From assembly GCA_027592745.1 (NCBI GenBank), contig JAQCLG010000026.1, positions 1 to 32,251 on the forward strand: 32,251 nt of DNA, in the 5' to 3' direction. The position numbers were made by a program, and so were the translations under genes. The notes below the pieces were generated by a model. The model worked only from the letters and a program-made list of their open reading frames with translations. It had not been told where the DNA came from and did not search any database. The number at the start of each line of letters is the position of its first letter. Position 1 is the stretch's first letter. Source of the DNA: Pseudomonadota bacterium. GTDB lineage: Bacteria; Pseudomonadota; Alphaproteobacteria; SP197. Of this stretch, positions 5,939 to 26,291 are shown in pieces.

Positions 5939-5962
5939 CCGGACCACCTAGGGAGAAGTTCC

Positions 5963-6127: not shown

Positions 6128-6137
6128 AGCCGTTGCG

Positions 6138-6394: not shown

Positions 6395-6404
6395 AGCCGG
6401 CGCC

Positions 6405-7361
<957 letters not shown>

Positions 7362-7408
7362 GGCGTCGTCTCCGGGGTTGGCACGGGCCCTGTTTAGCGC
7401 CGGCGGGA

Positions 7409-7630
7409 TTGCTTTGCATCCCTGCAGAGATGTTACTGCGGCTGATTTCCTCCAGTATCCACTTCCCCTGTGCCCAGACGCTGACCTCGCCGCGTGGCTA
7501 CTTCGTGATCTGCCCGCGGGAACGCGCGCAGGAGCCCAAGATCGCGCGCTTTCGTGCGTGGCTGCTCGATCAAGCCTTGCGGGATCGCGAGCGATTGGCG
7601 AACCTCGCTCCGGTTGCAGGGGGAGTCTGA
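7409..7630 (+). pseudogene. Remnant of a GcvA-type LysR regulator (C-terminal end only)
   Basis: From 7481 the frame reads LTSPRGYFVICPRERAQEPK and then IARFRAWLLDQ, the typical end of the effector domain of GcvA-like LysR proteins (hydrophobic-Cys-Pro strand, then a final FxxWLL helix). Nothing before 7481 in this frame matches the family, and no helix-turn-helix domain is present. About 50 residues of a roughly 300-residue protein remain. It sits divergent from gbuA, where a gbuA regulator would be expected, so it may be the relic of that regulator. Confidence 0.55.
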
Positions 7631-8185: not shown

Positions 8186-8216
8186 ACGCCTGATCCGGCC
8201 GGTTGCCGGGCGGCCC

Positions 8217-8852: not shown

Positions 8853-8886
8853 GGCATCGGCTTCCCTTGGCGTGGTCGTTCGGGGC

Positions 8887-9699: not shown

Positions 9700-9711
9700 C
9701 TTTCTCTCCCT

Positions 9712-11799
9712 TCAGACTTTGCGGATCAGGGCATCGACGGCGACGACGCCTTGCCCTTCCGGCAGAACGAACAGCGGATTGACGTCGAGTTCGGCGAGGC
9801 TCGCGCGGTTGGCATCGGCGTAGGCCGCCACCGCCTTGATCGCCTGGACCAGCGCCTCGCGGTCGCCCCTGGGGCCGCCGCGGAAGCCGTCGAGCAGCCT
9901 GGCGATCTTGAGGCCGTCGATGGCTGCCCGGATGTCGTCCTCGTGGGCGGGCAGCAGTAGCGTGGCGGCGTCCTTGTAGAGTTCGACCAGCACGCCGCCG
10001 GCACCGATCACCAGCACGGGGCCGAATTCCTCCGAACGGGTGATGCCGACGATCATCTCGGCGACCGGCCTGGGCGCCATCGGCTCGACCAGCACCCTGT
10101 CCACGCGCAGGCGCTCGGCCATGTCGCGCGCGGCCGCCGCGACTAGTTCGGGCGTCGTCAGGTTCAGCGCGACGCCGCCGACATCGGTCTTGTGCAGGAT
10201 GGTGTCCGACAGCAGCTTCACGGCGACGGGAAAGCCGATCGCCTCGGCTGCCTGCGCGGCCTGCGCGATCGTCGCGGTGCGGCCGGCCGGCACGGGCAGG
10301 CCGTAGGCGGCCAGTTCCTGCTTGCCCTGCCATTCGTCCAGCGCGCGGGGTTCGCCCGCCAGCGGCCGGACGTCGGGCAGGGCATGGCTGTCGAGTTCGG
10401 CGCGGGCGAGAAGCTGCTGGCGCCGCTCGCCGAAGGCGGCGGTACGCGCCACCGCACCGACACCCTCGCGGATGCCCTGCAGCGCGGCGATGCCGTCCTC
10501 GTGGCTCCACTTGCGCATTTCGGCGTTGGAGGCCTCTGGCATCACCGAACAATAGGCGACGGGCACGCCGGCACGACGGCCGGCATCGCGGGTGGCGTGG
10601 ACCACCGCGTCGGTCTCGTGCTTGTGCGCGTTCTTGATCTCCGACGGGGAGTCGACGATCAGCAGGCCGGCATCGACCCCCTCGCGCAGCAGGACGTGGA
10701 AGAGTTCCACCAGGACCTTGTAGTTGCCCCAGAAGTTGGTGTTGTAGTCGAAGGGGTTGGTGACGTTGGCGAACTCCGGCATCACCGCGCGCAATTCCTT
10801 GAACTGCTGCGGATTGGGCTGGGGCAGGATGACGCCGAGCGGATCGCCGAGGTCCGCGACCGTCTCGGAATCGCCGCCCGAACAGGTGAAGACGGCAAGG
10901 CGGCGCCCCTTGGGCACGCCGGTGACGGTGATGTACTTGGCGGTCTCGAGCAGTTCGACCGGGGTCGAGACGCGGATGATGCCCAGCCGGTCGAACAGCG
11001 CCTGGTAGAGCGAATCGTCGCCCGCCAGCGAGGCGGTGTGGGACAGCGCCATCTTCTTGCCGAGTTCGGAGACGCCCGATTTGATCGCGATGATCGGCTT
11101 GCCCGCCTTCAGCGCCCGCAGGGCGACGCGGCTGAAGTGGGGCACATCGGGAATGGCCTCGACGAACAGTGCAAAACAGGTGATCGCCGGGTTGTCGATC
11201 AGCACATCGACGAAATCGGCGGTGTCGAGCACCGCCTGGTTGCCGCAGGAGATGACATAGGCCAGTTCGGCGCTGCGCTGGTTGTTGGAGACGTTGATGC
11301 ACAGGTTGCCGCTCTGGGCGATGAAGGCGCAGCCGCGCTCGACGCGCTCGCCCGAGGAGGCGATGGCGAGCAGCGGCACGCCGTGCAGGAAGTTGTTGAT
11401 GCCGTAGCAGTTGGGACCGACTAGGGCCATGTCGCCGGCATTGGCGCGCAGTTCGTCCTCCAGCGCGGGGCCGACGCCGCCGACTTCGGAGTAGCCCGCA
11501 GCGTAGCAGATCGCCCCGCCGGCGCCGCGCGCGGCCAGGCTCCTGACCACCTGGTTGGTCATTTCGCGGTTGACCGCGATGAAGGTCGCATCGGGCGCAC
11601 CCGGCAGGTCCTCGACCGTGGGGTAGCACCTCGCCCCGCCGATGGTTTCGTACTTCGGGTTTACCACCCAGACCTCGCCGTCGAAGCCCAGGCGGCGGTT
11701 GTACTGGATGGTGTTTTCGAGGAAGGCGCCGCCGACGTAACACACGGTGCGGGGATTGAGGGCGCGCTTGAGGTTCTCGCGGCGACGTTCGTTGAGCAT
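9712..11799 (-). CDS. ADP-forming acyl-CoA synthetase (acetate-CoA ligase family), fused alpha-beta
   Basis: A 695-residue fused enzyme. Order of domains: CoA-binding Rossmann (about 10-130, VCYVGG...VVNPKYETIGG), succinyl-CoA-ligase-like flavodoxin part (about 150-300) with the phosphorylated His254 in ALSHTASLAG, a ligase/CoA domain to about 450, and a C-terminal ATP-grasp_5 domain (about 485-695; GFPVAVKLLSDTILHKTDVG, VEPMAPRPVAEMIVG, LDVNPLFVLP). It makes an acyl-CoA from a carboxylate, CoA and ATP, giving ADP and phosphate; the reaction is reversible. ATG 11799 follows a weak ribosome site (GGATC). A paralogue lies at 28927-31052. The following ECH suggests that it activates a carboxylate for beta-oxidation-like steps. 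Confidence 0.9.
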   Translation of the reverse strand: MLNERRRENLKRALNPRTVCYVGGAFLENTIQYNRRLGFDGEVWVVNPKYETIGGARCYPTVEDLPGAPDATFIAVNREMTNQVVRSLAARGAGGAICYAAGYSEVGGVGPALEDELRANAGDMALVGPNCYGINNFLHGVPLLAIASSGERVERGCAFIAQSGNLCINVSNNQRSAELAYVISCGNQAVLDTADFVDVLIDNPAITCFALFVEAIPDVPHFSRVALRALKAGKPIIAIKSGVSELGKKMALSHTASLAGDDSLYQALFDRLGIIRVSTPVELLETAKYITVTGVPKGRRLAVFTCSGGDSETVADLGDPLGVILPQPNPQQFKELRAVMPEFANVTNPFDYNTNFWGNYKVLVELFHVLLREGVDAGLLIVDSPSEIKNAHKHETDAVVHATRDAGRRAGVPVAYCSVMPEASNAEMRKWSHEDGIAALQGIREGVGAVARTAAFGERRQQLLARAELDSHALPDVRPLAGEPRALDEWQGKQELAAYGLPVPAGRTATIAQAAQAAEAIGFPVAVKLLSDTILHKTDVGGVALNLTTPELVAAAARDMAERLRVDRVLVEPMAPRPVAEMIVGITRSEEFGPVLVIGAGGVLVELYKDAATLLLPAHEDDIRAAIDGLKIARLLDGFRGGPRGDREALVQAIKAVAAYADANRASLAELDVNPLFVLPEGQGVVAVDALIRKV

Positions 11800-11837
11800 G
11801 GTGGTGATCCGAAAGGTGAGGGGCGTGTGCCCTACTT

Positions 11838-12676
11838 CTAGGGTTTCATGGCCGCCCAGTCGGCGTCCGACATCTTGCGCAGGAAGTTGAACTGACCGGC
11901 GCCCTGCAGCCACTCGCCGCCGTCGATGGTGACGACCTCGCCGTTGATATAAGCAGAGCCGTCGCACATCAGGAAGCTCGCCAGGTTGGCCAGTTCGATG
12001 TGTTCGCCCACGCCCCCAGCGGCACGCTGGCGGCACCCATGCCGTCCTCGGCCAGTTCGCCCGACTTCGGCATCAGTCGGTCCCAGGCGCCGGGGGTGGG
12101 GAAGGGGCCGGGCGCGATGGCGTTGAGCCGGATACCGCGGCCACCCCATTCCACGGCCAGGCTGCGCGTCATCGCCAGCACGCCTGCCTTGGCCATCGCC
12201 GAGGGCACGACATAGGCCGAACCCGTCCAGGCATAGGTCGTGATGATCGACAGCACGGTGCCGGGGCGCTCCTGCGCCAGCCAGCGCTTGCCGCAGGCCA
12301 GGGTCACATGGGAGGTGCCGTGCAACACGATGTTGAGCACCGCATCGACGGCGCGGTGGGAGAGTTCCTCGGTCTTCGAGATGAACTTGCCCGCGGCGTT
12401 GTTGACCAGCCCGTCGAGCGGACCCTCGGCCCAGATGGATTCGACCATGGCCTCGACACCCTCGGCGTCGCGGATGTCGATCTGGCGCACGGCGACGCTG
12501 CCGCCGGTCTCGCCGGAGACCTCGCGCGCGGTCGCCTCGAGCACTTCCAGGCGCCGGCCGCAGAACACGATCCCGGCGCCCAGTTCGGAAAAGCGCCGCA
12601 CCATCGCCTTGCCCAGCCCGGTGCCGCCGCCGGTCACCAGGAACTTCTTGCCCTTCAGCAGGCCGCTTTCGAACAT
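11838..12676 (-). pseudogene. SDR oxidoreductase (2,4-dienoyl-CoA reductase-like) with a one-base frameshift
   Basis: From ATG 12676 the frame encodes an SDR: KKFLVTGGGTGLGKAMVRRF, CGRR, LVNNAAGKF, the serine strand SIITTYAWTGSAY, and the AMAKAGVLAMTRSLAVEW helix. This resembles mitochondrial/peroxisomal dienoyl- or enoyl-CoA reductases. At about 12010-12020 the frame shifts. The true C-terminus continues one frame over as VGEHIELANLASFLMCDGSA, then YINGEVVTIDGG, ending DWAAMKP at TAG 11838. One missing base in a G-rich tract explains it; the expected reading is PLGRVGEHIELANL. If this is a sequencing error, the product is about 279 residues and fits the acyl-CoA operon. Otherwise it is a recent pseudogene. 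Confidence 0.8.
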
Positions 12677-12707
12677 CGCACCGTCCGTCCTCTTCCAGTC
12701 CCATATC

Positions 12708-12796
12708 TCCTCATCCCTGCGAAAGCAGGGGTCCAGAGCCACACGCTCTGCGCCGGCGTCCGCCACCCTGGATCCCTGCTTTCGCAGGGATGAGGA
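12708..12796. repeat. Long inverted-repeat element (29-base arms, 28 matching)
   Basis: The left arm (12708-12736) begins TCCTCATCCCTGCGAAAGC. The right arm (12768-12796) is its reverse complement apart from one base. The arms are separated by 31 bases. This is the CTCATCCCTGCGAAAGCAGG-type dispersed hairpin common in proteobacterial intergenic regions. It sits between the SDR and acyl-CoA dehydrogenase genes of one minus-strand run, where it could form an RNA hairpin affecting operon expression. Confidence 0.85.
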
Positions 12797-12812
12797 AAGG
12801 TTGTGTGGCGCT

Positions 12813-13979
12813 TCAGCCCCGCTGCTCGTAGGGGCGCAGCAGGTCGCGGCTGATGATGTGGCGCTGGATCTCGCTGGTGCCTTCCCAGATGCGCTCGACG
12901 CGGGCGTCGCGCCAGAAGCGCTGGACCGGCAGCTCCATCATCATGCCCATGCCGCCGAAGATCTGCACCGTGTGGTCGACCACGCGGCCCAGGACCTCGC
13001 TGGCAAACAGCTTGCACATGCTGGCGTCGGTCCTGGTGCAGGTGCCCTGGTCGAGCTTCCAGGCGACGTTGAGCGTCATCAGCTCGGCGGCGCGGATCTC
13101 GGTCGCCATGTCGGCAATCTTGAAGCTGACCCCCTGGAAGCGGCTGATGGTCTGGCCGAAGGCCTTGCGGCTGGCCGCCCATTCGTTGGCCATGGTCATG
13201 GCCCGCTTGGCCCGGCCGACGCAGTTGGCCGCCATGGAGACGCGGCCGGCATAGAGCCAGTCGTTGGCGACGTCGAAGCCCTTGCCTTCCTCGTCGAGGA
13301 TCTGGTTGTCGTGCACGCGCACGTTGTCGAAGGTCAGGTCGGTCGGGTTGTAGCCCCGCATGCAGACCGCTTCCATCTTGCGCACGTCGAAGCCGGGAGT
13401 GCCCTTGTCGACCAGGAAGCTGGTGATGCGCTTGACCGTGCCGCGCGGCGTCTCGTTCTCGCCCGTCACGCACATCACGATGAAGAAATCGGCGAGGTCG
13501 CCCTCGCTGATGAAGTGCTTGCGACCGTTGATCACCCAGTGGTCGCCGTCCTTCACGGCGCGGGTCTGGATGTTGCGGGCATCCGATCCGGCGCCCGGCT
13601 CGGTCAGCGCGAAGGCTTCCTTGCGTTCGCCGGCCAGCGCTGGCTTGAGCCAGCGTTCGATCTGCTCGCCCTTGCACTTGGTCAGGATGTGGGTCGGCCC
13701 GCCGGCACACACCGCCAGGGCTGCCGAGCTGCTGCCCATTTCGAAGGCGATCAGCGCCGAGGTGACTGCGTCGAGGCCCAGGCCGCCCCATTCCTCGGGC
13801 AGGTGCTTAAGGTAGAGGCCCGCCTCGATGGCGGCCTTGCGCACCTTCGCCTCGATCTGCGGCGGCACGTAGCCCAGCTTCTCGACCTCCTCCTCATGGG
13901 GCGCCATCTCCCTGGCGATGAAGGCCCGCACGGAATCGATCAGCATCACCTGCTCGTCGGTCGGCGTGAAATCGAGCAT
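12813..13979 (-). CDS. Acyl-CoA dehydrogenase
   Basis: A 388-residue FAD-dependent acyl-CoA dehydrogenase of standard length. Signatures: the N-terminal helical domain from MLDFTPTDEQVML; the first ACAD motif AFALTEPGAGSDARN near residue 120; the flavin-contacting WVINGRKHFISEG; and the C-terminal ERIWEGTSEIQRHIISRDLL, where Glu366 occupies the usual catalytic base position. It is close in length and motif layout to the tandem neighbour at 14195-15361, so they are probably paralogues by duplication. The chain-length or substrate preference cannot be told. A 215-base gap with a repeat element separates the two. Confidence 0.93.
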   Translation of the reverse strand: MLDFTPTDEQVMLIDSVRAFIAREMAPHEEEVEKLGYVPPQIEAKVRKAAIEAGLYLKHLPEEWGGLGLDAVTSALIAFEMGSSSAALAVCAGGPTHILTKCKGEQIERWLKPALAGERKEAFALTEPGAGSDARNIQTRAVKDGDHWVINGRKHFISEGDLADFFIVMCVTGENETPRGTVKRITSFLVDKGTPGFDVRKMEAVCMRGYNPTDLTFDNVRVHDNQILDEEGKGFDVANDWLYAGRVSMAANCVGRAKRAMTMANEWAASRKAFGQTISRFQGVSFKIADMATEIRAAELMTLNVAWKLDQGTCTRTDASMCKLFASEVLGRVVDHTVQIFGGMGMMMELPVQRFWRDARVERIWEGTSEIQRHIISRDLLRPYEQRG

Positions 13980-14004
13980 CAGCGCATTCCTTTGATGATC
14001 GGTT

Positions 14005-14169
14005 TCCCTCTCCCCTTGTGGGGGAGGGTTGCGCAGCCTTGGTGCGGCGCAGCCGCGCCTAGGCGAAGCTGGGTGAGGGGGAAGCGTCGAGACGCCCTGC
14101 GTGGTTTTTCTCCGCGCTGCCGCGCGTAAGACCCCTCACCCCGACCCTCTCCCACAAGGGGAGAGGGGA
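14005..14169. repeat. Compound hairpin repeat element between tandem acyl-CoA dehydrogenase genes
   Basis: The two ends (about 14005-14029 and 14144-14169) carry CCCTCTCCCCTTGTGGG-type units in opposite orientation, nearly perfect inverted arms. Inside lie GGGTGAGGGGG (14071-14081) and CCCCTCACCCC (14132-14142), another inverted pair. This CTCTCCC/CTCACCCC layout is a well-known family of dispersed intergenic repeats in alphaproteobacteria. It is probably a non-autonomous element, and no transposase is nearby. Confidence 0.8.
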
Positions 14170-14194
14170 CAGTGTTGTGGAACCGGTGCATCCT

Positions 14195-15361
14195 TCAGGC
14201 CTCCAGCGGGCGCAGGATGGAACGGCTGATGATGTGGCGCTGCACCTCGCTGGTGCCCTCCCAGATGCGCTCGATGCGCGCATCGCGCCACAGGCGCCCG
14301 ACGGGGAAGTCGCTCATCATGCCCATGCCGCCGTAGATCTGGACCGCCTCGTCGGTGGTGCGCCCCAGCATCTCGCTGGCGTAGAGCTTGGCCATGGCGG
14401 CGTCGGCGTCGGTAAGGTTGCCCTGATCCAGGCGCCAGGCGGCATTGAAGGTCAGCCATTCGGCGGCGGCCAGCTCGGTCTCCATGTCGGCAAGCTTGAA
14501 GGAGACGCCCTGGAAACGGCCGATCTCCTGGCCGAACTGCTTCCTCGTGGCGGCCCACTCCATGGACATGTCGATGGCGCGGCGCGCCTTGCCGCAGCAG
14601 TTGGCCGCGACCATCACGCGGCCGGGCACCAGCCACTCGCCGGCGACCTCGAAGCCCTTGCCTTCCTCGCCCAGGATCTGGCTTTCGGGCAGGCGGCAAT
14701 CATCGAAGTAGATGTTGTTGACGTTGTGGCCGGGGTTGCCGATCGGCTTGCTGCCCAGGCTGATCTCCATGCCGGGCGTGCCCTTGTCGATCAGGAAGGC
14801 GGTGATGCGGCTCCTCCTGCCGCGCGGCGTCTCGTCCTCGCCGGTGACGGCAAAGACGATGGCGAAGTCGGCGCGGTCGGCGTTGCTGATGAAGTGCTTG
14901 CGGCCGTTGAGCACCCAGTCGCTGCCGTCCTTGCGGGCGCGCGTCGTGATGCCCATGGCGTCCGATCCGGCGCCCGGCTCGGTCAGCGCGAAACAGTCGA
15001 GCTTTTCGCCGGCGATCACGGGGTAGAGGTATTTCTCGCGCTGTTCGCCTTCGCAGGCGCACAGGATCAGGCTGCCGCCCTGGACGCAGGAGATCAGGCC
15101 CCAGGTCGTCACGCCCAGTTCGTATGACATCAGCGAGGCGGTGACGTTGTCGATGCCGCCGCCGCCCAGGTCTTCGGGGAAGTGGGCGTTCCAGAAGCCC
15201 ATCGCGACGGACTTCGCGCGGATCCGGGCCTCGATCTCGCCGGGCACGTCGCCCTTGTCGTAGACGACATCCTCGTGGGGCAGGACCTCCTCGCGCATGA
15301 AGGCGCGCAGGCTGTCGCGCACCATCGCCTGCTCCTCTGTGAATCCGAAGTCGTAGGCCAT
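14195..15361 (-). CDS. Acyl-CoA dehydrogenase (tandem paralogue)
   Basis: A 388-residue acyl-CoA dehydrogenase with the same motif set as its neighbour: CFALTEPGAGSDAMG, WVLNGRKHFISNAD, and ERIWEGTSEVQRHIISRSIL with Glu368 in the catalytic base position. The N-terminus MAYDFGFTEEQAMVRDSLRA is typical. It starts 13 bases after the stop of the upstream ECH gene, so these two are co-transcribed. It and the 12813-13979 enzyme have matching lengths but different substrate-cavity residues, which suggests related but different acyl-CoA substrates. Confidence 0.93.
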   Translation of the reverse strand: MAYDFGFTEEQAMVRDSLRAFMREEVLPHEDVVYDKGDVPGEIEARIRAKSVAMGFWNAHFPEDLGGGGIDNVTASLMSYELGVTTWGLISCVQGGSLILCACEGEQREKYLYPVIAGEKLDCFALTEPGAGSDAMGITTRARKDGSDWVLNGRKHFISNADRADFAIVFAVTGEDETPRGRRSRITAFLIDKGTPGMEISLGSKPIGNPGHNVNNIYFDDCRLPESQILGEEGKGFEVAGEWLVPGRVMVAANCCGKARRAIDMSMEWAATRKQFGQEIGRFQGVSFKLADMETELAAAEWLTFNAAWRLDQGNLTDADAAMAKLYASEMLGRTTDEAVQIYGGMGMMSDFPVGRLWRDARIERIWEGTSEVQRHIISRSILRPLEA

Positions 15362-15374
15362 CGCGCCGCTCCCC

Positions 15375-16157
15375 CTAGAGACCCTTGAAGACTGGTTCGC
15401 GCCGCTCGACCGCCGCGGCCAGGGCCTCCTTATGATCGGCGGTGTCGCCGCAGATCTTGCCCGCGGCCTGTTTGGCCTTGAGCTGGTCGGCGAGCGAACG
15501 GCCGGCGGCGTCCTCCATCAGCTTCTTGGTCTGGCGGATGGCGACGCTGGGCCCGCTGCCGAGCTGGCGGGCAAAGGCCATGGTCGCGGCCTCCAGGTCC
15601 GCGGTGGCGTGGACCTCGGTGACCAAGCCGCTCGCCCGCGCCTGTTCGGCCGACCAGATGTCGCCGGTGAAGGCAAAACGCTTGGCTGCCTCCAGGCCCA
15701 TCAGACGGGGCATCAGCCAGGTGCCGCCGGCGTCCGGGTTGAAGCCGACCCAGGTATAGGCGCAGCGGAACTTCGCCTCGGCGGCGGCGAAACGGAAGTC
15801 GCAGGTCAGCGCCATGTCCAGGCCCGCGCCCACCGCCGCGCCGTTGATCATGGCGATCAACGGCGTCTCCAGGGCGTGCAGGTCGAGGATCAGGCCGTGC
15901 ATCTCGCCGACCCAGTCGTAGCCCTCGGGCACGCCGGTTTTGGCCAGTTCCGACCACTCCTTGACGTCGGCGCCGGCGCAGAAGCCCTTGCCATTGCCCG
16001 TCACCACCAGGCAGCGCACGTTGTCGGCCGCGACGGCCGCCAGTTCGGCGCGCACGGCCTTGATCAGCGCCATGTTGAGGGCGTTGCGCGCATCGGGGCG
16101 ATTGAGGCGCAGGACGCGCACCGCGCCATCGTCGGTGCGTTCAACCAGTTGGGTCAT
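15375..16157 (-). CDS. Enoyl-CoA hydratase/isomerase family protein
   Basis: A 260-residue crotonase-fold protein. The oxyanion-hole segments are GKGFCAGADVKEWSE and AMINGAAVGAGLDMALTCDF. The catalytic-loop region reads VGFNPDAGGTWLMPRLMG, where a Gly/Asp pattern replaces the classical Glu-bearing loop seen in mitochondrial hydratase, so hydratase versus isomerase activity is uncertain. ATG 16157 (MTQLVERTDD) is chosen because upstream extension lacks family similarity. It is the first gene of the minus-strand acyl-CoA run. Confidence 0.9.
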   Translation of the reverse strand: MTQLVERTDDGAVRVLRLNRPDARNALNMALIKAVRAELAAVAADNVRCLVVTGNGKGFCAGADVKEWSELAKTGVPEGYDWVGEMHGLILDLHALETPLIAMINGAAVGAGLDMALTCDFRFAAAEAKFRCAYTWVGFNPDAGGTWLMPRLMGLEAAKRFAFTGDIWSAEQARASGLVTEVHATADLEAATMAFARQLGSGPSVAIRQTKKLMEDAAGRSLADQLKAKQAAGKICGDTADHKEALAAAVERREPVFKGL

Positions 16158-16953: not shown

Positions 16954-18213
16954 TCAGCGGCGGCGCGCCATGCCGGCGATGTCGCGGTCCATCTGGTTGC
17001 GCAGGGCAAGGGCCGCACCGCTGCTGGAGGTGCGCGGCACCGGCACGTAGGGCGTCTGCTCCTCGTTCGGCGTCGCCGCCCGCTGCGTCATGCGCCACAG
17101 GGCGAAGACGCCCAGGGCTGCCATGGCCGCGGCGGGAAACCAGAAATAGCCCGACGGTCCCAGGATCGACATCGCGCCGCCGGCCAGCGCCGGCCCGGCG
17201 ATGCCGCCCAGGCCGTTGGCAAAGAGCAGGCCGCTGCTGGCGGCGACCATCTGGCGTGGCTCCAGATGGTCGTTGGTGTGGGCGACGGACAGTGTGTAGA
17301 GCGGGATCGCCATGCCGCCCACGACACCGACGCCCAGCATCAGCACCACGGGGTTGTCGCCGCCGTAGAGCGCGGCAAGGGCCGCCAGGGCAGCCCCCGC
17401 CAGGGTCGTGCCCGTGATCACCCGGCGCCGGTCGAAGATGTCGCTGAGTTGGCCCAGGGGCCATTGCAGCACCATGCCGCCCACGATCGAGGCAAAGGCA
17501 AACAGCGAGACGCTGGCAATCGGCATGCCGACCTTCTGGGCATAGACCGAGGCAAGCCAGATCAACGCGCCCGAAGTCGCGCCGTTCGTCACGCAGCCGA
17601 CCACGCCCAGGGGCGAGATGCGGTAGAGCTGGGTGAGCTTCAGCTTCTCGAGCTCGTGGAAGGCCGGTGCCGGATAGGCCGTCAGCGACAGCGGCACCAG
17701 GGCCAGCGAGACCATCACGGAAGCGGCGATGAACAGGTCGAAGCCGTCGGGATTGCCGATGTTGAGCAGCAGGGGCCCCAGCGCCATGCAGCCGGTCATG
17801 ACGATGACGTAGACCGACAGCAGCTGGCCGCGCGTGGCATTGGTCGAGCGTTCGTTCAGCCAGCTCTCGGCAACCACGAACAGGCCGAAGTAGCAGAAGC
17901 CGGTCAGCAGGCGCAGGGCGATCCATGCCACCGGATCGAGGAACACGGCATGCAGCAGCACGGCGATGGAGGCAAGCGAGGCCAGGGCGCCGAAGACGCG
18001 GATGTGGCCGACACGGGCGACCAGGCGCGGCACGATCATCGAGCCGATCAGGAAGCCGGCGAAATAGGCCGACATCACGACGCCGGTCACCAGGGCGGAG
18101 AAGTCCTCGGTTCCCGCGCGTACGCCCAGCAGCGAACCCTGCAGGCCGCTGCCCATCATGAACAGGGCGACACCCAGCAGCAGGGGCCAGACCGAAGAGA
18201 TGGCAGAGAACAT
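16954..18213 (-). CDS. MFS transporter, YcaD/UMF1-like
   Basis: A 419-residue transporter with about 12 hydrophobic helices. It starts at ATG 18213 (MFSAISSVWPLLLGVALFMM). Characteristic stretches are GSGLQGSLLGVRA, MSAYFAGFLIGSMIVPRLV, RVGHIRVFGALASLAS, and FVVAESWLNERSTNATRGQL, which match the YcaD-like major facilitator subgroup of unknown substrate. The cytoplasmic tail after residue about 385 is polar. It is divergent from the cyanophycin-synthetase-like gene with a 211-base gap, so it may move a substrate or product of that enzyme. That link rests only on position. Confidence 0.9.
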   Translation of the reverse strand: MFSAISSVWPLLLGVALFMMGSGLQGSLLGVRAGTEDFSALVTGVVMSAYFAGFLIGSMIVPRLVARVGHIRVFGALASLASIAVLLHAVFLDPVAWIALRLLTGFCYFGLFVVAESWLNERSTNATRGQLLSVYVIVMTGCMALGPLLLNIGNPDGFDLFIAASVMVSLALVPLSLTAYPAPAFHELEKLKLTQLYRISPLGVVGCVTNGATSGALIWLASVYAQKVGMPIASVSLFAFASIVGGMVLQWPLGQLSDIFDRRRVITGTTLAGAALAALAALYGGDNPVVLMLGVGVVGGMAIPLYTLSVAHTNDHLEPRQMVAASSGLLFANGLGGIAGPALAGGAMSILGPSGYFWFPAAAMAALGVFALWRMTQRAATPNEEQTPYVPVPRTSSSGAALALRNQMDRDIAGMARRR

Positions 18214-18424
18214 GGCGGTGGCTCTCGACGTGCGGTAGAGCGCGGCGTATCCCTTTTCCGGCGCGCTGATGTTACCGCATGCGACGATGCAATGCCCGCG
18301 CCGTGCGAGAACGGACCACAAAGAGGGGGCCAGAGCCGTGGCAGTCATTTTCCGGGCGGGGAAGCCCTTTCCCGATCCCTGCCCGCCGGCCGGCATCGCC
18401 GTCGGCTTCAACGCTTAGCCGGCC

Positions 18425-20287
18425 ATGGCGACATCGCGCATCTGGGAAGTTCTCCGCAGCGAAACCTTCGTTGGGCCCAATCCTGCGCTACCCTGTCGGG
18501 CGTTGCGGGTGCGGCTGGCGCTTGCCGTGCCCAGGCTGGGTCCCAGGCGTTTCGCGGCACTGCTCGAGGCGCTGGATGCCGTGCGCCGGCGACGCAAAGA
18601 TCTGCCCGGGCCTCTGCTTGCGTCCCTGATGGCGGAGCAGGGACAGGTCTCCAGTGCCGCGACCATTGCGGCCGTCACCGTGGAACTGCAGCGCATGTTC
18701 GGCGATCTGGTCAGCCGCGCCGTGGTCGGCGACATCGACGACGCGGGAGCATGTGTCATTGCCTGCGAGATCGAACAGGAGGTCCTGGGCAGCCTGGCGT
18801 TGCGTGCCGCCATGGCGATGGTGGCCCATGCTGTTGCGCGCGCGGCCCGCAGGCCCGAGGCGCTCGATTCTTTCATCGCACGCGCCGAGGCCGAAGCGCG
18901 CGACAGCGCCACCGCAGCGATCGTGCTGGGTGCGCGCGAGCGCGGCATTCCGGCCCGGCGGCTCCATCAGGGCCATCGCTTCGTCAACCATGTCCGCTTC
19001 AGCCACGGTCGCTATCAGCGCCAGGCCATCAGCACGATCACCGACGGCTGTTCGGCGGTTGCCGGGTCGGTGACCGGCAGCAAGAGCCAGACGGTTCTCC
19101 TTCTGCGCCGGCTGGGCCTTCCCGTGCCGCACCAGTTCGTTGCCGCCAGCGCGAAGGAAGCGCGGACAGCCGGGGAGCGGATCGGCTACCCGGTGGTGGT
19201 CAAGCCCGATCGCGGCACCGGTGGTGCCGGCATCACCGCGGATGTGCGCGACGAGACCGAGCTCGATGCCGCGTTCGGCCTTGCGACAAGCTACAGTTCC
19301 ACCGCGGTGGTGGAGGAGATGATTCCGGGCGAGGACCACCGCATGCTGGTCTGCGGCGGCAGGATGGTCGCGGCGACCCAGCGCCGCCGTGCCGCGGTGG
19401 TTGGTGATGGCCGCACCACCATCGCCGCGCTGATTGCCGCGGAAAACGCCAACCCGCGCCGGGGTCCTGCCGGTCAGGCCGACCTCGTGACGATCAAGCC
19501 GGATGCCGCCATGCGCACTCTGCTCGCCCGCGATGGCCTCGACCTTCGGAGCGTGCCGCCGGCAGGCCACCCGGTCCTGCTGCGCACCACGGCCAACATG
19601 AAGCTTGGCGGTTCGGTCGTGGCCGTCGACGATATCGTCCACCCCGACAACCAGCGCCTGGCGGAAGCCGCAGCACTGGGCCTTGGCCTCGACATCGCGG
19701 GTGTTGATCTCCTGATTCCCGATATCGCCGTCTCCTACCTCGACCAGCCCTGTGCCATCGTCGAGGTCAACATGAACCCGGGGCTGGCCTACGGCAGCTT
19801 CCCCGACGTCTTCCCCAGGGTGATCGACGGTGTCCTGGGCCAGCTCTTTGCCCCCGGCGAAACCGCAACGATGCCGCTGGTCGCCGTCGTGGGCTCTGCG
19901 CAGGGGCAGGGGCCGGCGACGGTCGCTGCCCTGGTTCGGGGGTTCGCCCTTGCGGGGCGCTGCGCGGCATGGTTCGACGGGCACGACCTGGGCATCGGCT
20001 GCGCCATCCAGCAGCGCGGTGTGGCCGAGGTGGCACTGGCCGCCGACATGATCCTGGGTCAGCCGCTCGCCGAGGCGGGCGTGCTGTTGTGCGAGGCACG
20101 GCACCTGCTGCGCCGCGGCCTGCCATGGGAAACGTGCGACACCGTGGTGTTCGCCGATGGCGCCGCCGCCGGCGAACTCGACTTCGTTGTCGCCGCGGCT
20201 GGCGGGCGCAGCTTCCAGGTCGGCGATGCGCCCGAGGCCACGGCCGCGGCCGTGATCGGCGCCCTGGGCCTTGGCGCGGTGAACTGA
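18425..20287 (+). CDS. Cyanophycin-synthetase-like ATP-grasp ligase with a degenerate, truncated Mur-ligase domain
   Basis: A 620-residue protein. Residues 1-165 resemble the CphA N domain (FVGPNP near 15, VTVELQRMFGDLV near 85). Residues about 165-475 are a CphA-type ATP-grasp core: SATAAIVLGARERGIPARRL, TDGCSAVAGSVTGSKSQTVL, VVVKPDRGTGGAGI with the ATP-binding Lys260, GEDHRMLVCGGRMVAA, VVGDGRTTI, LRTTANMKLGG, and the metal-binding IVEVNMNPG. Residues about 483-590 align with the start of the Mur-ligase half, but the P-loop usually GTNGKTTT reads GSAQGQGPAT, and about 200-300 C-terminal residues are missing. CphA1 makes Asp-Arg polymer with both halves; CphA2 joins beta-Asp-Arg units with the ATP-grasp half alone. 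This protein can have at most one ligase site. Substrates are unknown. No strong ribosome site is seen before ATG 18425, which follows an in-frame stop closely. Confidence 0.85.
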   Translation: MATSRIWEVLRSETFVGPNPALPCRALRVRLALAVPRLGPRRFAALLEALDAVRRRRKDLPGPLLASLMAEQGQVSSAATIAAVTVELQRMFGDLVSRAVVGDIDDAGACVIACEIEQEVLGSLALRAAMAMVAHAVARAARRPEALDSFIARAEAEARDSATAAIVLGARERGIPARRLHQGHRFVNHVRFSHGRYQRQAISTITDGCSAVAGSVTGSKSQTVLLLRRLGLPVPHQFVAASAKEARTAGERIGYPVVVKPDRGTGGAGITADVRDETELDAAFGLATSYSSTAVVEEMIPGEDHRMLVCGGRMVAATQRRRAAVVGDGRTTIAALIAAENANPRRGPAGQADLVTIKPDAAMRTLLARDGLDLRSVPPAGHPVLLRTTANMKLGGSVVAVDDIVHPDNQRLAEAAALGLGLDIAGVDLLIPDIAVSYLDQPCAIVEVNMNPGLAYGSFPDVFPRVIDGVLGQLFAPGETATMPLVAVVGSAQGQGPATVAALVRGFALAGRCAAWFDGHDLGIGCAIQQRGVAEVALAADMILGQPLAEAGVLLCEARHLLRRGLPWETCDTVVFADGAAAGELDFVVAAAGGRSFQVGDAPEATAAAVIGALGLGAVN

Positions 20288-20292: not shown

Positions 20293-21048
20293 TCAGATAC
20301 CGACGATGGTGTCGCCGCCGTTGGGACTGATGCACTGGCCGGTGATGAAGCTCGCCCGCTCCGAGGCCAGGAAGACCACCGCCTCGCACATCTCCTCGGG
20401 CTGCGCCCAGCGGCCCAGCGGAATCAGCTTGGCGCGGTCGTCGATATAGTCCTTGCCCTTGTGCACCGTCATCTCGGTCAGCACGCAGCCGGGGGCCACC
20501 GCGTTGACGCGGATGTTCCAGGGCGCCAGTTCCTTGGCCCAGGTCTTGGTCAGGCCGAGCAGTGCGGCCTTGGCGCCGCAGTGCTGGGAATCGGAATGAT
20601 GGCCGGTCATGCCCCAGATCGAGGAGATGTTGACGATGGCGCCGCCGCCGCGCGCCTTCATGCCCGGCACCACGGCCTGGGTGGCAAAGAAGCTGCCCTT
20701 CACGTGGACGCCGAAGCCGCGGTCGAAATCGGCCTCGCTGGTGCCTTCGAGCGTGCCGCCAAGGCCGATGCCGGCATTGTTGACCAGGATGTCGATGCGT
20801 CCCAGCGTGGCCTCGGCGTGTGCGATCGCGGCCTGCATGGCGGCGATGTCGGCGATGTCGCAGACGATGGTGTGCACCGTCGCGCCGGTCGCGGCCACCT
20901 TCCTTGTCGCATCGGCGGCCAGACCCGGATCGATGTCGTGGATCACGATGGTCGCGCCGCGCTGCGCCATCAGCAGCGCATCGACCAGGCCCATGCCCCG
21001 GCCCGAGCCGGTGATCAGGGCGACCTTGCCCGCGAATTCTTCCGTCAT
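20293..21048 (-). CDS. SDR family protein with His replacing the catalytic Tyr
   Basis: A 251-residue classical-length SDR. Cofactor motif GSGRGMGL near residue 14, Asp-containing strand end HDID (suggests NAD), LVNNAGIG, and the Ser strand IVNISSIWG are present. Where YxxxK is expected the sequence is QHCGAKAALLGLTK: the Lys is kept but the Tyr position is His (CAC; one base from TAC). The C-terminus ends ITGQCISPNGGDTIVGI, normal for the family. It converges with the CphA-like gene (5 bases between stops) and is divergent from the PLP decarboxylase gene. It could be a low-activity or non-catalytic SDR, or the change could be a base error. Confidence 0.88.
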   Translation of the reverse strand: MTEEFAGKVALITGSGRGMGLVDALLMAQRGATIVIHDIDPGLAADATRKVAATGATVHTIVCDIADIAAMQAAIAHAEATLGRIDILVNNAGIGLGGTLEGTSEADFDRGFGVHVKGSFFATQAVVPGMKARGGGAIVNISSIWGMTGHHSDSQHCGAKAALLGLTKTWAKELAPWNIRVNAVAPGCVLTEMTVHKGKDYIDDRAKLIPLGRWAQPEEMCEAVVFLASERASFITGQCISPNGGDTIVGI

Positions 21049-21156: not shown

Positions 21157-22422
21157 ATGGCGCAAGAGGAAACCAACCGGGTCTTTGCGGAGCAGGGCAG
21201 GGATGCCCGCACCCTGTTCGCCGAGATGGATGCCATCGCATCGGCCGACCAGCGCTGGGACGACCCGAGGAACCTGAAGGCCTCCTACTGGGCGGGAGAC
21301 GACGTGGTGGCCGTCATGCACGAGGCCTATGCCCGCCATGTCGACGACAACGCCATCTACGGCGCCTCGCTCTTTCCCAGCCTCGTGCGCTACGAGGCAG
21401 AGGTCGTGGCGATGGCCCTCGACATGCTGGAGGCCCCGGAAGGTGCGGCCGGGGGCATCACCACGGGCGGCACCGAGAGTATCCTGATGGCCGTGCGCAC
21501 GGCGCGGGACTGGGCGCGTATCCACCGGCCCGGCGCCGCACATCCCGAGATCATCCTGCCCGAGACCGCCCATCCGGCCTTCGAGAAGGCGGCGCAGGTC
21601 GTCGGCATGGCCGTGGTACGCATGACACGCAGCCCGGACTGGCGTGCCGATGTCGCCGCGATGGAAGCCGCCATCGGAGCGAACACGGTCATGCTCGTCG
21701 GCTCGGCGCCGCCCTATCCCTACGGCATCGTCGATCCCATCGCCGGGATCGCCGCGCTGGCCGTGGCCCATGGTCTGTGGATGCATGTCGACGGCTGCAT
21801 CGGCGGCTTCCTGCTGCCCTTCCTGGCAGACCTGGGCGAGCCGGTGCCGCCCTTCGACTTCCGGGTCCCCGGCGTCGATTCGATCTCGGCCGATCTCCAC
21901 AAGTTCGGCTACAGCGGCCGGGGTGCCTCGCTGCTGCTGCTGCGCGAGCGCGCCAACGAGGACTTCCAGCGCTTCAGTTCCGATGCCTGGCCCTCGGGCA
22001 CCTACAGCACGCTGAACTTCGGCGGCTCGCGCAACGGCGGCGCCATCGCCTCGTCCTGGGCGGTGATGCGTTATCTCGGACGCGCCGGCTACCGCGAGCG
22101 CGTCGCCGCGATCGTGGCGACCAAACGCGCCATCGCGGAAGGCCTTGCCGCCGACGGCCGCCTTGCGGTCCTGGGCAGGCCGGAGGGCGCCAACATCTGC
22201 ATCGTGTCGGACACGCTCGACATGGTCGCGGTGGCCGAAGGGCTGGACGAGAAGGGCTGGCTCACCGGGCGCCTGCAGCGTCCCGCGGGCCTGCTCTTGC
22301 TCATCACGCCGCGCCACGCCGGGATCGAAGGCAGCCTGCTGGCCGACCTCCGCGCCGTCGCCGACGAGGTCGCCTCGGGGCGGCGCAGCGCCCGGGGTTC
22401 CCAGGCGGTCTACGTCGGCTGA
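21157..22422 (+). CDS. PLP-dependent decarboxylase/lyase, sphingosine-1-phosphate lyase-like group
   Basis: A 421-residue group II fold-type I PLP enzyme. The phosphate-binding turn is TTGGTES (residues 102-108), the pyridine-N Asp is D212 in MHVDGCIGGF, and the Schiff-base Lys is K249 in SADLHKFGYS. The motif set matches sphinganine-1-phosphate lyase and the related glutamate/aromatic decarboxylase superfamily. A bacterial soluble protein of this length could be a lyase or an amino-acid decarboxylase; the substrate is not readable. ATG 21157 has a strong GGGGGAGG ribosome site. It is convergent with ureC (4 bases between stops) and shares an upstream 10-base element with ureAB and the class III aminotransferase. 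Confidence 0.88.
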   Translation: MAQEETNRVFAEQGRDARTLFAEMDAIASADQRWDDPRNLKASYWAGDDVVAVMHEAYARHVDDNAIYGASLFPSLVRYEAEVVAMALDMLEAPEGAAGGITTGGTESILMAVRTARDWARIHRPGAAHPEIILPETAHPAFEKAAQVVGMAVVRMTRSPDWRADVAAMEAAIGANTVMLVGSAPPYPYGIVDPIAGIAALAVAHGLWMHVDGCIGGFLLPFLADLGEPVPPFDFRVPGVDSISADLHKFGYSGRGASLLLLRERANEDFQRFSSDAWPSGTYSTLNFGGSRNGGAIASSWAVMRYLGRAGYRERVAAIVATKRAIAEGLAADGRLAVLGRPEGANICIVSDTLDMVAVAEGLDEKGWLTGRLQRPAGLLLLITPRHAGIEGSLLADLRAVADEVASGRRSARGSQAVYVG

Positions 22423-22426: not shown

Positions 22427-24136
22427 TCAACGCAGGAAGTAGCGCCTGTTGAGGGTGACGTTGCGCACGGGCTCGCTGGTCGCGTGTTCGCCGTCGGCAA
22501 AGACCTCAAAGGTCTGGGGATCGACGCGGATCTCGGGCAGCGCGTCGTTGCGTACCATGTCGGCCTTGGTCAGCCGGCGCACCGGCCCCGTCGCCAGCAT
22601 CGGCTTGGAGACGTTCCAACGCCCGGCCATGTCGTTGTCGATCGCGCTGCGATGGACGAAGATCGCCGAGAGCGTATCGGGCGCGCTTCCCGTGGCGGGC
22701 CAGCTTGCCCGGTAGACGTTGGGTTCGCAGACCGAAAGCGAGGCCGCGGCATCGCCCAGCGGACGCCAGACCTCGGCGCCGCATTTCAGCACCTGGCTCG
22801 GCTTGACGCCGAAGAAGGCCGGCTGCCAGAGCACGATATCGGCCATCTTGCCGATCTCCAGGCTGCCGACGTGGTCGGCGATGCCGAAGGTGATCGCGGG
22901 ATTGATCGTGGTCTTGGCGAGGTAACGCAGGATGCGCGCGTTGTCGGCGTTGCCGTAGGGTTCGCCCGGCAGTGGCCCGCGCTCGTCCTTCATCTTGGAG
23001 GCCAGGCGCCACATGCCGGCGATCACGTCCATCGTGCGTCCCATGCCCTCGGCGTCCGAACCCGCCATGGAGATGGCGCCCAGATCGTGCAGCACATCCT
23101 CGGCGGCCATGGTCTGGGGCCGCAGCCGGCTCTCGGCGAAAGCGACGTCCTCGGCGATGTCGCCGCGCAGGGTGTGGCAGAGCATCATCATGTCGAGATG
23201 CTCGTCGAAGGCGTTCAGGGTGAACGGGTTGGTCGGGCTGGTCGAGCTGGGCAGGCAGTTGGCTTCGCCGTTGCAGCGGATGATGTCGGGCGCATGGCCG
23301 CCGCCGGCACCCTCGGTGTGGTACATGTGGATGGTGCGCCCGGCGATCGCGGCCATGGTCGATTCGAAGAAGCCGGCCTCGTTCATGCCGTCGGTGTGGA
23401 GCTGGACCTGGAAGTCGAGGTCGTCGGCGACGCTGAGGCAGGTGTCGATCACCGCCGGCATGGCGCCGAGATCCTCGTGGATCTTCACGCCGATCACGCC
23501 GCAGGAGATCTGCTCGGCGATCGCCTCGGGCCGCGAGGCGCCGCCGCGGCTGAACAGGCCGAAGTTCATGGGCAGGGCGTCGAGCGCCTTCAGCATCTTG
23601 GCATTGGCCCATTCGCCGCCGCTGTCGATCGACCAGGCGCCCGGCCAGCCGCCCCCGATCATGGTGGTCAGGCCCGAGGACAGCGCGTGCCAGACCTCGG
23701 CGGGCTGGCCGTAATGGGCATGGACGTCGATGCCGCCGGGGGTGGCGATCAGGCCCTGGCCGCTGAAGTGCTTGGTCAGCGGGCCGATCGTCATGCCCGG
23801 GCTGACCCCGGCCATCACCGCCGGGTTGCCCGCCTTGCCGATGGCGCAGATGCGGCCGTCGCGGATGCCGATGTCGGCCTTGAAGATGCCCTGCACCGGG
23901 CACATCAGCACGACGTTGAGGACGACCGCCTCCAGCGCGCCGTCGGCGATGGTGGCGCGTCCCTCGATGCCGTTGCCGTCGCGCAGCGTCTTGCCGACGC
24001 CGGTGATGCCTTCCTCGCCATAGGTGCCCAGATCGCGCTCGATCCGTGCCAGCAGGCTGGTGTCGCCCAGGCGGATTCGGTCGCCCGTGGTCGGTCCGAA
24101 CATCTGTGCGTAGCGCGCCCGCGTCATCCTTGCCAT
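22427..24136 (-). CDS. ureC: Divergent urease alpha subunit (amidohydrolase)
   Basis: A 569-residue urease alpha-type nickel amidohydrolase. The metal and catalytic set is retained: His139/His141 (GGIDVHAH), Lys218 for carbamylation and His220 (GVKIHED), His247, His273 (YHTEGAGGGHAPD), flap Cys320-His321 and Arg337, and Asp361 (GSDAEGMGR). Against the Klebsiella protein as I recall it, the loop after GGG is changed: canonical GTGPAAGTHATTCTPG is replaced by WPGAWSIDSGGEW and is about four residues shorter, and CHHL is CHTL. That loop contributes the Ala contacts to urea, so the substrate may differ. It starts 3 bases after the ureAB stop, so the two are translationally linked. No ureDEFG genes are in the window. 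Confidence 0.88.
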   Translation of the reverse strand: MARMTRARYAQMFGPTTGDRIRLGDTSLLARIERDLGTYGEEGITGVGKTLRDGNGIEGRATIADGALEAVVLNVVLMCPVQGIFKADIGIRDGRICAIGKAGNPAVMAGVSPGMTIGPLTKHFSGQGLIATPGGIDVHAHYGQPAEVWHALSSGLTTMIGGGWPGAWSIDSGGEWANAKMLKALDALPMNFGLFSRGGASRPEAIAEQISCGVIGVKIHEDLGAMPAVIDTCLSVADDLDFQVQLHTDGMNEAGFFESTMAAIAGRTIHMYHTEGAGGGHAPDIIRCNGEANCLPSSTSPTNPFTLNAFDEHLDMMMLCHTLRGDIAEDVAFAESRLRPQTMAAEDVLHDLGAISMAGSDAEGMGRTMDVIAGMWRLASKMKDERGPLPGEPYGNADNARILRYLAKTTINPAITFGIADHVGSLEIGKMADIVLWQPAFFGVKPSQVLKCGAEVWRPLGDAAASLSVCEPNVYRASWPATGSAPDTLSAIFVHRSAIDNDMAGRWNVSKPMLATGPVRRLTKADMVRNDALPEIRVDPQTFEVFADGEHATSEPVRNVTLNRRYFLR

Positions 24137-24139: not shown

Positions 24140-24835
24140 TCAGGCCCCCCGGAAGCCGCGCTGGCGGGCGCGTTCGAGGGCGGCCTCGCGGACCGCGGGA
24201 TCGTGGATCGAACCTTCGGTCAGGCGGTTGAGGCCGGTCAGGTCGCCGGTGCCGGCGATGGCGGTCAGCGCGATCTCCCTGGACCCTCCGGGATCGAACC
24301 GGGCGGTGGCGCCGGCCGGCAGGTCGAGGCGGAAACCGAAGGCGCCCGCCCGGTCGAACTCCAGCTCCCGATTGGCTTCGAAGAAATGATAGTGGCTGGA
24401 GACGTGGACCGGGCGGTCGCCGGTGTTGCAAACCACCAGCGTCTTCTTCTCTCCTGCCACGTTGAGTTCGATCTCGCCCTCCTCGGTCAGGATCTCGCCG
24501 GCGACCACGGCGGCTTCGACCGCCTCCTTGCCCGGCCGGATCGGCTGCCAGACGGTGATCGTCTTGGCGCCGTCCTCGAACAGCCCGTCGACGTTGATCA
24601 GGCCGACCATCCCGGCGACGCCGGGCATGACGTCGTCGGTGGTCAGGATGCGCGAACCCAGGCTGATGCATTCAGCCAGCGACAGGCCGTCGCGCGCAGC
24701 CTCGAGCAGGGTGTCGGTGATCAGCGCCACCGCCTCTGGGTGGTTGAGCCTGACGCCGCGGGCACGCCGTTTCCTGGCCAGTTCGGCGGCGGTGAAGATC
24801 ACCAGCCGCTCCATTTCCGTGGGTGTCAGCATCAT
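24140..24835 (-). CDS. ureAB: Fused urease gamma-beta subunit
   Basis: A 231-residue fusion. Residues 1-100 are the gamma subunit (LTPTEMERLVIFTAAELARK, RGVRLNHPEAVALI, DDVMPGVAGM, TITVWQPIR). Residues about 107-210 are the beta subunit (GEIELNVAGEKKTLVVCNTG, SSHYHFFEANRELEFDR, RLDLPAGATARFDPGGSREI, LTGLNRLTEG). Gamma-beta fusions occur in Helicobacter and in the second urease of some actinobacteria and proteobacteria. ATG 24835 (tandem ATG at 24832) has GGGAGA upstream. It forms an operon with ureC and is divergent from the aminotransferase gene, with a mirrored promoter motif between them. The two subunits are structural; activity needs nickel-insertion proteins encoded elsewhere. Confidence 0.9.
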   Translation of the reverse strand: MMLTPTEMERLVIFTAAELARKRRARGVRLNHPEAVALITDTLLEAARDGLSLAECISLGSRILTTDDVMPGVAGMVGLINVDGLFEDGAKTITVWQPIRPGKEAVEAAVVAGEILTEEGEIELNVAGEKKTLVVCNTGDRPVHVSSHYHFFEANRELEFDRAGAFGFRLDLPAGATARFDPGGSREIALTAIAGTGDLTGLNRLTEGSIHDPAVREAALERARQRGFRGA

Positions 24836-24941: not shown

Positions 24942-26291
24942 ATGGCGACGGCAGGAACCAGGGGCGCTCTGGCGCGCGAGAAGCTTGCGGCGATGACTCC
25001 GGGGTCGCGCGCACTCCACGAGCGCGGCAGCAAGGTGCTGCCCGTCGAGGTCGTGCCGACCTTCGAGATGCCCTCGCCGATCTACGTGCGTTCCATGGAA
25101 GGCGCGCGCATCACCGATGTCGACGGCAACACATGGCTCGACCTCACCATGGGTGCCGGTCCCCATGTCCTGGGCCACCGGCCCAAGGTCGTCGAGGACG
25201 CCCTGCACGACCAGCTCCGCCGTGGCTGGCATGTCGTGCTGCACAACGAACGCCAGGTCGAGCTTGCCGAACTGCTGGCCGATGCCGCACCCATGGCGGA
25301 GCGCACGATCTTCTGCAATTCCGGCACGGAAGCCACGATGTACGGCATGCGCGTGGCGCGTGCCTTTACCGGTCGCGAGAAGGTCGCGGTGTTCGACGGC
25401 AGCTACCACGGCGCCCACGACTACGCGCTGGTCAAGGCCGATCCCGCGAGCCCGCGCCATGCACCCACGGGCAAGGTCATCGGCGGCGGCGTGCCGCGCG
25501 CCATCGGCGACGACACCATGGTCGTGCTGCCCTACCGCGATCCGGTGGCCTTCGACATCGTGCGCGCCCGCAAGGACGAACTGGCGCTGGTCATGGTCCA
25601 GCCGGTGCAGAACACGGTGCCGCGCGACGATTCCGGTCCCTGGCTCCAGGAACTGCACGCCGTCTGCAAGGAAAACGGCGTGCTCTTCATGCTCGACGAG
25701 GTGGTGACCGGCTTCCGCCTGGGCTGGGGCGGCGGCATGGCGTTCTTCGGCCTGGACGCCGATCTCGCCACCTTCGGCAAGGCGCTGGGCGGCGGCATGC
25801 CGATCGGCGCGCTATCGGGCCGAGCCGACATCGTCAGCCTGCTGGGCCGTTCCTGGACCGATCCCAAGGGCGTCTTCTCAGGCGGCACGTTCTCGGGCAA
25901 CCCGCTCTCGATGGCCGCGGGCATCGCCGCGCTGGGCCACATGCAGGCCAACAAGGCGACGCTCTATCCCTATCTCAACACCCAGGGCGCGCGGCTTGCC
26001 CATGCGGTCAACAGCTTCTGCGAGGAGCGCCAGATCGGCGCCCAGCTGCTCAACGCTGGTTCGATCTTCTACATGCACTTCAAGCGTGGCATCGACAGCT
26101 CGCGCGACTTGGCCGACGAGAACAAGGACGCCGAGCGGGAGTTCTACGTCAACCTGACCGCCAAGGGTGTGATCGTGCCGGGCATCCATCTCTTCTTTAC
26201 CTCGGCGGCCCACACGCCCCAGGACATCGACACCATCGCCACCGCCTTCCAGGATGCCCTGATGGACACCCGCGAGGACGGCTTTCTCTGA
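24942..26291 (+). CDS. Class III aminotransferase, glutamate-1-semialdehyde 2,1-aminomutase-like
   Basis: A 449-residue PLP enzyme, close to GSA aminomutase length. Visible features: TDVDGNTWLDLTMGAGPHVL near residue 50, FCNSGTEATMYGMRVARAFT (PLP phosphate), SYHGAHDYAL, LFMLDEVVTGFRLGWGG with the pyridine Asp, the Schiff-base Lys in ATFGKALGGGMPIGAL, and FSGGTFSGNPLSMAAG. True HemL acts in tetrapyrrole synthesis, but alphaproteobacteria mostly make 5-aminolevulinate by the HemA route, and the gene sits with a decarboxylase and a urease-like enzyme. A different amino-group transfer or mutase reaction is therefore likelier. ATG 24942 follows GGGGAGG. The methyltransferase gene follows after 117 bases. 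Confidence 0.88.
   Translation: MATAGTRGALAREKLAAMTPGSRALHERGSKVLPVEVVPTFEMPSPIYVRSMEGARITDVDGNTWLDLTMGAGPHVLGHRPKVVEDALHDQLRRGWHVVLHNERQVELAELLADAAPMAERTIFCNSGTEATMYGMRVARAFTGREKVAVFDGSYHGAHDYALVKADPASPRHAPTGKVIGGGVPRAIGDDTMVVLPYRDPVAFDIVRARKDELALVMVQPVQNTVPRDDSGPWLQELHAVCKENGVLFMLDEVVTGFRLGWGGGMAFFGLDADLATFGKALGGGMPIGALSGRADIVSLLGRSWTDPKGVFSGGTFSGNPLSMAAGIAALGHMQANKATLYPYLNTQGARLAHAVNSFCEERQIGAQLLNAGSIFYMHFKRGIDSSRDLADENKDAEREFYVNLTAKGVIVPGIHLFFTSAAHTPQDIDTIATAFQDALMDTREDGFL

Follow-up and report, generated by a model that had tools for sequence, protein, structure and literature searches.

A gene for a shortened protein resembling cyanophycin synthetase lies on an alphaproteobacterial contig among genes of a predicted arginine and urea pathway, and raises the question of what an enzyme of this family would make with only one of its two catalytic halves intact. 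The stretch of DNA analysed (32,251 nt, hereafter the window) is one entire contig of a 3.85-Mb, 99%-complete genome from a small order, represented by 16 genomes in the comparison set. Sequence comparison and a structural model point, with a probability of about 0.55, to a working amide ligase that has a single ATP-grasp site and descends from a proteobacterial cyanophycin synthetase.

A short protein of the cyanophycin synthetase family

The open reading frame encodes 620 amino acids from an ATG start, which is backed by relatives beginning at the same position. Its likeness to CphA is well beyond chance, with matches to the NCBIfam cyanophycin synthetase models PRK14016 (4.6e-104, 349 bits; cut-off 877) and TIGR02068 (3.8e-93, 313 bits; below the curated cut-off of 850), and to CphA1 sequences in the PDB (9e-69). 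The model match spans residues 77–576 and falls short of half the curated cut-off, because the last ~250 residues of CphA1 are absent and the Mur core is degenerate. The features of the gene are as follows.

18425–20287, + strand: short CphA-family protein, 620 aa, with one intact ATP-grasp site (sequence matches; AlphaFold2 model)
18425–18904, + strand: N domain of CphA-type fold, residues 1–160, without the HxxEH peptidase motif (alignment, model)
18905–19849, + strand: G (ATP-grasp) domain, residues 161–475 (alignment to PDB CphA)
19202–19231, + strand: G-domain P-loop KPDRGTGGAG (KPLDGNHGRG in CphA1), with Gly for the catalytic H267 (alignment)
19601–19603, + strand: Lys393 at the CphA Ser396 position, beside the bound Asp; Lys in 3/3 cluster-borne copies (alignment; PMC9427784)
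19787–19789, + strand: Ala455 at the CphA1 Arg458 position (alignment; PMC9427784)
19850–20284, + strand: Mur-core remnant, residues 476–620, no lid, alpha/beta fold predicted with high confidence (alignment, model, dN/dS 0.31)
19892–19921, + strand: degenerate Mur P-loop GSAQGQGPAT (alignment)

A preliminary description of this DNA had held that the ATP-grasp half keeps its conserved signatures, and that the Mur half has lost its P-loop Lys together with 200–300 C-terminal residues. All of this was borne out: the signatures are present, GSAQGQGPAT replaces the GT(N/D)GKTTT of full-length CphA1s, and the chain stops at about residue 620 of ~880. About 140 residues of the Mur core are retained. 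Reduced to this core, with neither P-loop nor lid, the Mur half is thus, by alignment and model, catalytically dead. The HxxEH motif is absent from the N domains of the window protein and two relatives carrying the gene in the same cluster (L005 and L023), and present in the full-length proteins L029 and L031; it occurs in about 80% of CphA1s, where it makes primers, but is not strictly defining (PMC9262961).

The AlphaFold2 model is confident over the whole chain (pLDDT 91.5, pTM 0.86) and shows the Mur remnant as a well-folded alpha/beta unit. It superposes on CphA1 (7lgn) with Z 30.0 over 583 residues, and on CphA2 (7ta5) with Z 27.6 over 560 of 585 residues (rmsd 3.7).

The short end is genuine and the gene is constrained

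The stop codon is followed 5 bases on by a convergent SDR gene, so there is no room for the lost Mur end. The sister-genome copy (L005, 75% identity) lacks the same parts; it is split over two contigs whose 19-base overlap falls within the 3′ end of the gene, and joining them gives the same stop, then the same SDR. The L023 copy, from another genus of the family (39% identity), also lacks the same parts and has the SDR directly after its stop. The possibility, raised in the preliminary description, that a frameshift conceals a full Mur domain is excluded by the shared stop and SDR, and an assembly error is ruled out by the same evidence.

Pairwise dN/dS between the window gene and L005 is 0.25 overall (0.30 for the N domain, 0.19 for the G domain and 0.31 for the Mur remnant), and 0.10–0.18 for four neighbouring genes. 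Measured in this way, all three domains, the Mur remnant included, are under purifying selection, and a pseudogene is ruled out. The gene is constrained yet, by these sequence measures, evolves faster than its metabolic neighbours: identity to the L023 counterparts is 39% for the CphA-like protein and 66–81% for MFS, SDR and urease. Such rapid change, together with the absence of the gene from four related genomes in which the cluster persists, would fit a decaying or non-catalytic paralogue, either losing its ligase activity or serving as a regulator that binds ATP or nitrogen metabolites. This is improbable given the G-domain ratio, a frame free of stops and frameshifts, and the retention of all ATP and Mg ligands across 39% identity. 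An active ligase is predicted with considerable confidence.

The gene lies in a conserved arginine, guanidino and urea cluster

The gene is flanked by the following features.

1805–3427, − strand: TPP enzyme of the 5-guanidino-2-oxopentanoate decarboxylase family, AruI-type (NF005712, 608.3 bits; cut-off 500)
4617–5534, + strand: DDAH/arginine-deiminase-family hydrolase (PF19420, 1.2e-24; PF02274, 1.1e-17)
6405–7361, − strand: agmatinase/ureohydrolase (TIGR01230, 200.2 bits; cut-off 174.3)
8887–16157, − strand: CoA arm, with enoyl-CoA hydratases, an NDP-forming acyl-CoA ligase, an SDR and two acyl-CoA dehydrogenases (order conserved in L133–L135)
16954–18213, − strand: MFS transporter of the conserved cluster (profile match, relatives)
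18214–18424, no strand: intergenic stretch between the diverging MFS and CphA-like genes, likely to contain the promoters of both (L005 and L023 have a similar divergent gap of ~200–250 bp)
20293–21048, − strand: SDR oxidoreductase, convergent with the CphA-like gene (profile match, relatives)
21157–22422, + strand: PLP-dependent decarboxylase, MfnA/GAD-type (the sister species has it, the L023 cluster does not)
22427–24136, − strand: urease alpha subunit UreC (TIGR01792, 719.7 bits; cut-off 680)
24140–24835, − strand: fused urease gamma/beta subunit (PRK13192, 321.8 bits; cut-off 243)
25035–26291, + strand: class-III aminotransferase of the cluster (profile match, relatives)

The MFS transporter, PLP decarboxylase, urease and aminotransferase named earlier were all recovered, and the SDR is there as well. 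The wording 'urease-like' was right as to the enzyme but too weak, as UreC, UreA and UreB pass curated cut-offs. The view that a CphA-type ligase is out of place beside such neighbours did not hold, since the cluster appears to be one of arginine, guanidino and urea catabolism, which is not foreign to the chemistry of the family. This pathway assignment rests on the family membership of the enzymes, and AruI homologues can be promiscuous (PMC7268258).

Much of the gene order is kept in related genomes (ACAD-ECH-aminotransferase-UreAB-UreC-SDR-MFS-ACAD-ACAD-ligase-ECH, with DDAH and AruI further on). In two of them (G012 and G013) SDR and MFS adjoin on one strand, with a ~160-base gap and no CphA-like gene between. 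The CphA-like gene of the window, like that of the sister genome and that of L023, sits between these two on the opposite strand, convergent with the SDR and divergent from the MFS. Judged by gene content, it is an accessory of the cluster, tied to the pathway by position only, since four genomes of the family (G006, G012, G013 and G014) keep the MFS-urease core without it. The copies are monophyletic and occupy the same site in two genera, suggesting an old insertion that was later lost in several lineages.

The UreC of the window is the only one found in its genome. The accessory genes are grouped on a different contig (G000:C108), with UreG identified by model and UreD/E/F recognised by sequence, making a working urease likely. 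The UreC at 22427–24136 has CHTL where ureases usually have CHHL, with Thr for the second His, as is also seen in L023 and G014. This was considered as a loss of the catalytic His320 and set aside, because the alignment keeps the Cys and the following His and replaces only the next His.

Across several genera of this one small alphaproteobacterial order, the AruI-type decarboxylase, DDAH-type hydrolase, urease, MFS and acyl-CoA enzymes are conserved together (window 1805–31052; L096, L133, L134, L135, L138 and L139), in what looks like a CoA-dependent route of guanidino-acid degradation. Near the end of the window, the NDP-forming acyl-CoA ligase (29436–31052; 538 aa, against 709 aa in L140 of the sister genome) and an acyl-CoA dehydrogenase (31197–32213; 338 aa, against 398 aa in L140) both look frameshifted towards their own ends, through assembly error or decay.

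The ATP site is kept and the substrate site is rebuilt

Positions were mapped to TeCphA1, for which a structure with all G-domain substrates has been published (PMC9427784), and the functions of the residues are taken from that work. The window protein keeps K220, K260, R306, R320, N391, D428, E447 and N449 (K220, K261, R309, R323, N394, D431, E450 and N452 of TeCphA1), of which TeCphA1 K220 and K261 are ATP residues. By alignment, the ATP, Mg and acyl-phosphate residues are likewise kept in L005 and L023.

Four other positions are altered in all three proteins. H267, the acyl-phosphate stabiliser, is Gly in the window protein; E215, which contacts the Arg side chain of the primer, is Ser (Ser/Ala/Ile across the three cluster-borne copies); S396, beside the bound Asp, is Lys; and R458, which binds the alpha-carboxylate of Asp in CphA1, is Ala. 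H267, E215 and R458 are also residues that distinguish CphA1 from the dipeptide ligase GshF (PMC9427784). The CphA2 structures have Lys at 267, Asp at 215, Ser at 396 and Phe/Tyr at 458. Because CphA2 alters both H267 and R458 yet still polymerises, the loss of these two is compatible with polymerisation and does not, by itself, exclude it. Reading the R458 change as the mark of an amine acceptor without an alpha-carboxylate was dropped, CphA2 likewise being without R458. Among the sequences examined, Lys at 396 is seen in the window group alone. The comparison with CphA structures proposed in the preliminary description yielded site changes that argue against the making of cyanophycin.

Another polyamide or oligo-amide would result if the G domain repeatedly extended what it had made, using some other monomer, for example a guanidino or amino acid. 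Characterised CphA enzymes do polymerise, and the N domain, which soft-binds the growing chain in CphA1 (PMC9262961), is kept here. Against these points stand the changed residues that hold the cyanophycin primer, the missing N-domain peptidase motif, and a cluster in which no depolymerase candidate was identified, leaving such a product unlikely, though less so than decay of the gene.

Phylogeny and occurrence of short forms

Trees were built from the ATP-grasp domain, and only unrooted splits were read, because a distant ATP-grasp root pulled the fast window branch rootward. The window protein, L005 and L023 group together (100/98 in two of three trees). This group falls within an alphaproteobacterial set inside the proteobacterial CphA1s (96/95 and 100/98), and the same set includes L028 and L030, both with an intact Mur P-loop. 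CphA2 is placed elsewhere, away from the window group. A tree forcing the two together was not rejected (AU p 0.32 and 0.26), so that loss of the Mur site independently of CphA2 is probable, not proven. The trees accordingly speak against placement inside CphA2, named beforehand as evidence against a distinct ligase, but the AU tests do not reject it.

Searches of the order and the class found no cluster-borne copies beyond the three genomes. Further short CphA-like proteins without the Mur P-loop do occur in Alphaproteobacteria, in other gene contexts (an L024 pair, L026, L006 and L070), and as the second genes of betaproteobacterial tandem pairs (L073 and L074). A plasmid search gave ordinary or distant CphA matches only, all below 60% identity.

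Several of these loci have features of their own. In the sister genome, an adenylation-PCP (NRPS-like) gene has two adjoining short CphA-like genes nearby (L024 1817–5466); neither of the two has the Mur P-loop, and the second has a TAG inside the matched frame. L070 carries a 1102-aa fusion of an AMP-binding domain and a CphA-like ATP-grasp domain (4258–7566), beside a 658-aa short CphA-like gene (7785–9761). Of the three second genes of betaproteobacterial cphA pairs (L073 3168–5372, L074 4079–6256 and L072 3997–6153), two no longer have the Mur P-loop, and in all three Gly replaces the conserved G-domain Arg323. One CphA-like match, carried by a plasmid of Microvirga ossetica (NZ_CP016620.1, 355197–356417), is annotated as a CapA family protein, possibly a fusion or a misannotation.

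Cyanophycin metabolism and the probable function

No CphA1 was found in the 99%-complete source genome, nor any member of Peptidase_S51, the cyanophycinase family, for which the search control was positive in 10/14 genomes. A cyanophycin operon is ruled out on these grounds. With neither family present, and with the primer and Asp pockets rebuilt, cyanophycin as a product is unlikely.

The same results bear on the proposal that the protein acts as a CphA2, its G domain alone joining beta-Asp-Arg dipeptides or close analogues into cyanophycin and its dead Mur half being a shared CphA2 trait. The domain layout and loss are the same, the model superposes on 7ta5 over nearly its whole length, and the AU tests do not reject a joint clade. 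The trees, however, put the protein among proteobacterial CphA1s; a genome without cyanophycinase family or CphA1 offers no recognised source of beta-Asp-Arg; and Ser396 and Glu215 have become Lys and Ser, whereas the two CphA2 structures retain Ser396 and carry Asp at position 215. A CphA2 function is improbable, to the same degree as a decaying paralogue.

The favoured reading remains a single-site amide ligase, and it is somewhat probable that this ligase does not polymerise cyanophycin-like chains. The G domain would phosphorylate a carboxylate with ATP, giving an acyl phosphate, and would then couple it to an amine in one round or a few, with no cyanophycin formed. Scaffold and oligomer interfaces may be provided by the N domain and the Mur core. 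The substrate would come from, or the product pass into, the surrounding pathway, and the divergently transcribed MFS carrier perhaps moves one or the other. Candidate carboxylates and amines offered by the pathway are guanidino acids, agmatine and GABA-type compounds. A substrate that is guanidino- or arginine-derived is a tentative suggestion, and a small amide is the best guess for the product.

More speculatively, a family of CphA-derived single-site ligases in Alphaproteobacteria may have left cyanophycin metabolism, lost the Mur site independently of CphA2, and come to conjugate a guanidino or amine intermediate of the arginine/urease pathway into an undescribed amide; this full scenario is doubtful as it stands. 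If true, CphA gave rise to single-site ligases more than once, a natural comparison for the passage from a two-site polymerase to one reaction, and a possibly undescribed amide would be indicated in arginine and urea nitrogen metabolism. Automatic annotation would name such genes cyanophycin synthetase and credit their hosts, probably wrongly, with a nitrogen-storage polymer.

Comparison with known systems

The preliminary description was right that one live half is joined to a dead Mur half, and relatives share this layout; the layout is not new, nor its surroundings foreign. CphA2 is defined by the absence of the Mur P-loop and Mur lid (PMC9427784), and the window protein has this same loss. 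What appears to be undescribed is such a layout combined with a rebuilt substrate site and encoded in an arginine/urease cluster of Alphaproteobacteria, and a search of openly licensed papers found no description of this short CphA-like family.

The proteobacterial CphA1s (Acinetobacter baylyi 7lgm and Tatumella morbirosei 7lgn) resemble the window protein in N domain, G domain and Mur core by sequence and fold, give the top PDB sequence scores and are nearest in the tree; the window protein differs in lacking the Mur P-loop and lid and in the changes at H267, E215, S396 and R458. The cyanobacterial CphA2s (7ta5 from Gloeothece citriformis and 8fxh from Stanieria) are of similar length and match in fold over the whole chain, but differ at 215, 267, 396 and 458; the trees place them apart, though a joint clade is not rejected (AU p 0.26–0.32), and the window protein is alphaproteobacterial and lies in an arginine/urease cluster. 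The betaproteobacterial tandem second cyanophycin synthetases (L072–L074, 718–734 aa) are CphA paralogues whose Mur half is also shortened, but they stand beside a full CphA1 and form a separate clade. The ATP-grasp part of the bifunctional glutathione synthetases of GshAB/GshF type (3ln6 and 3ln7) belongs to the same ATP-grasp subfamily, and GshF, like the window protein, lacks H267, E215 and R458; in contrast to these enzymes, the window protein has no glutamate-cysteine ligase domain and carries the CphA N domain and a Mur remnant. With the ATP-grasp carboxylate-amine ligase superfamily as a whole, the window protein shares the fold, the Lys pair and the Mg-binding Asp, Glu and Asn.
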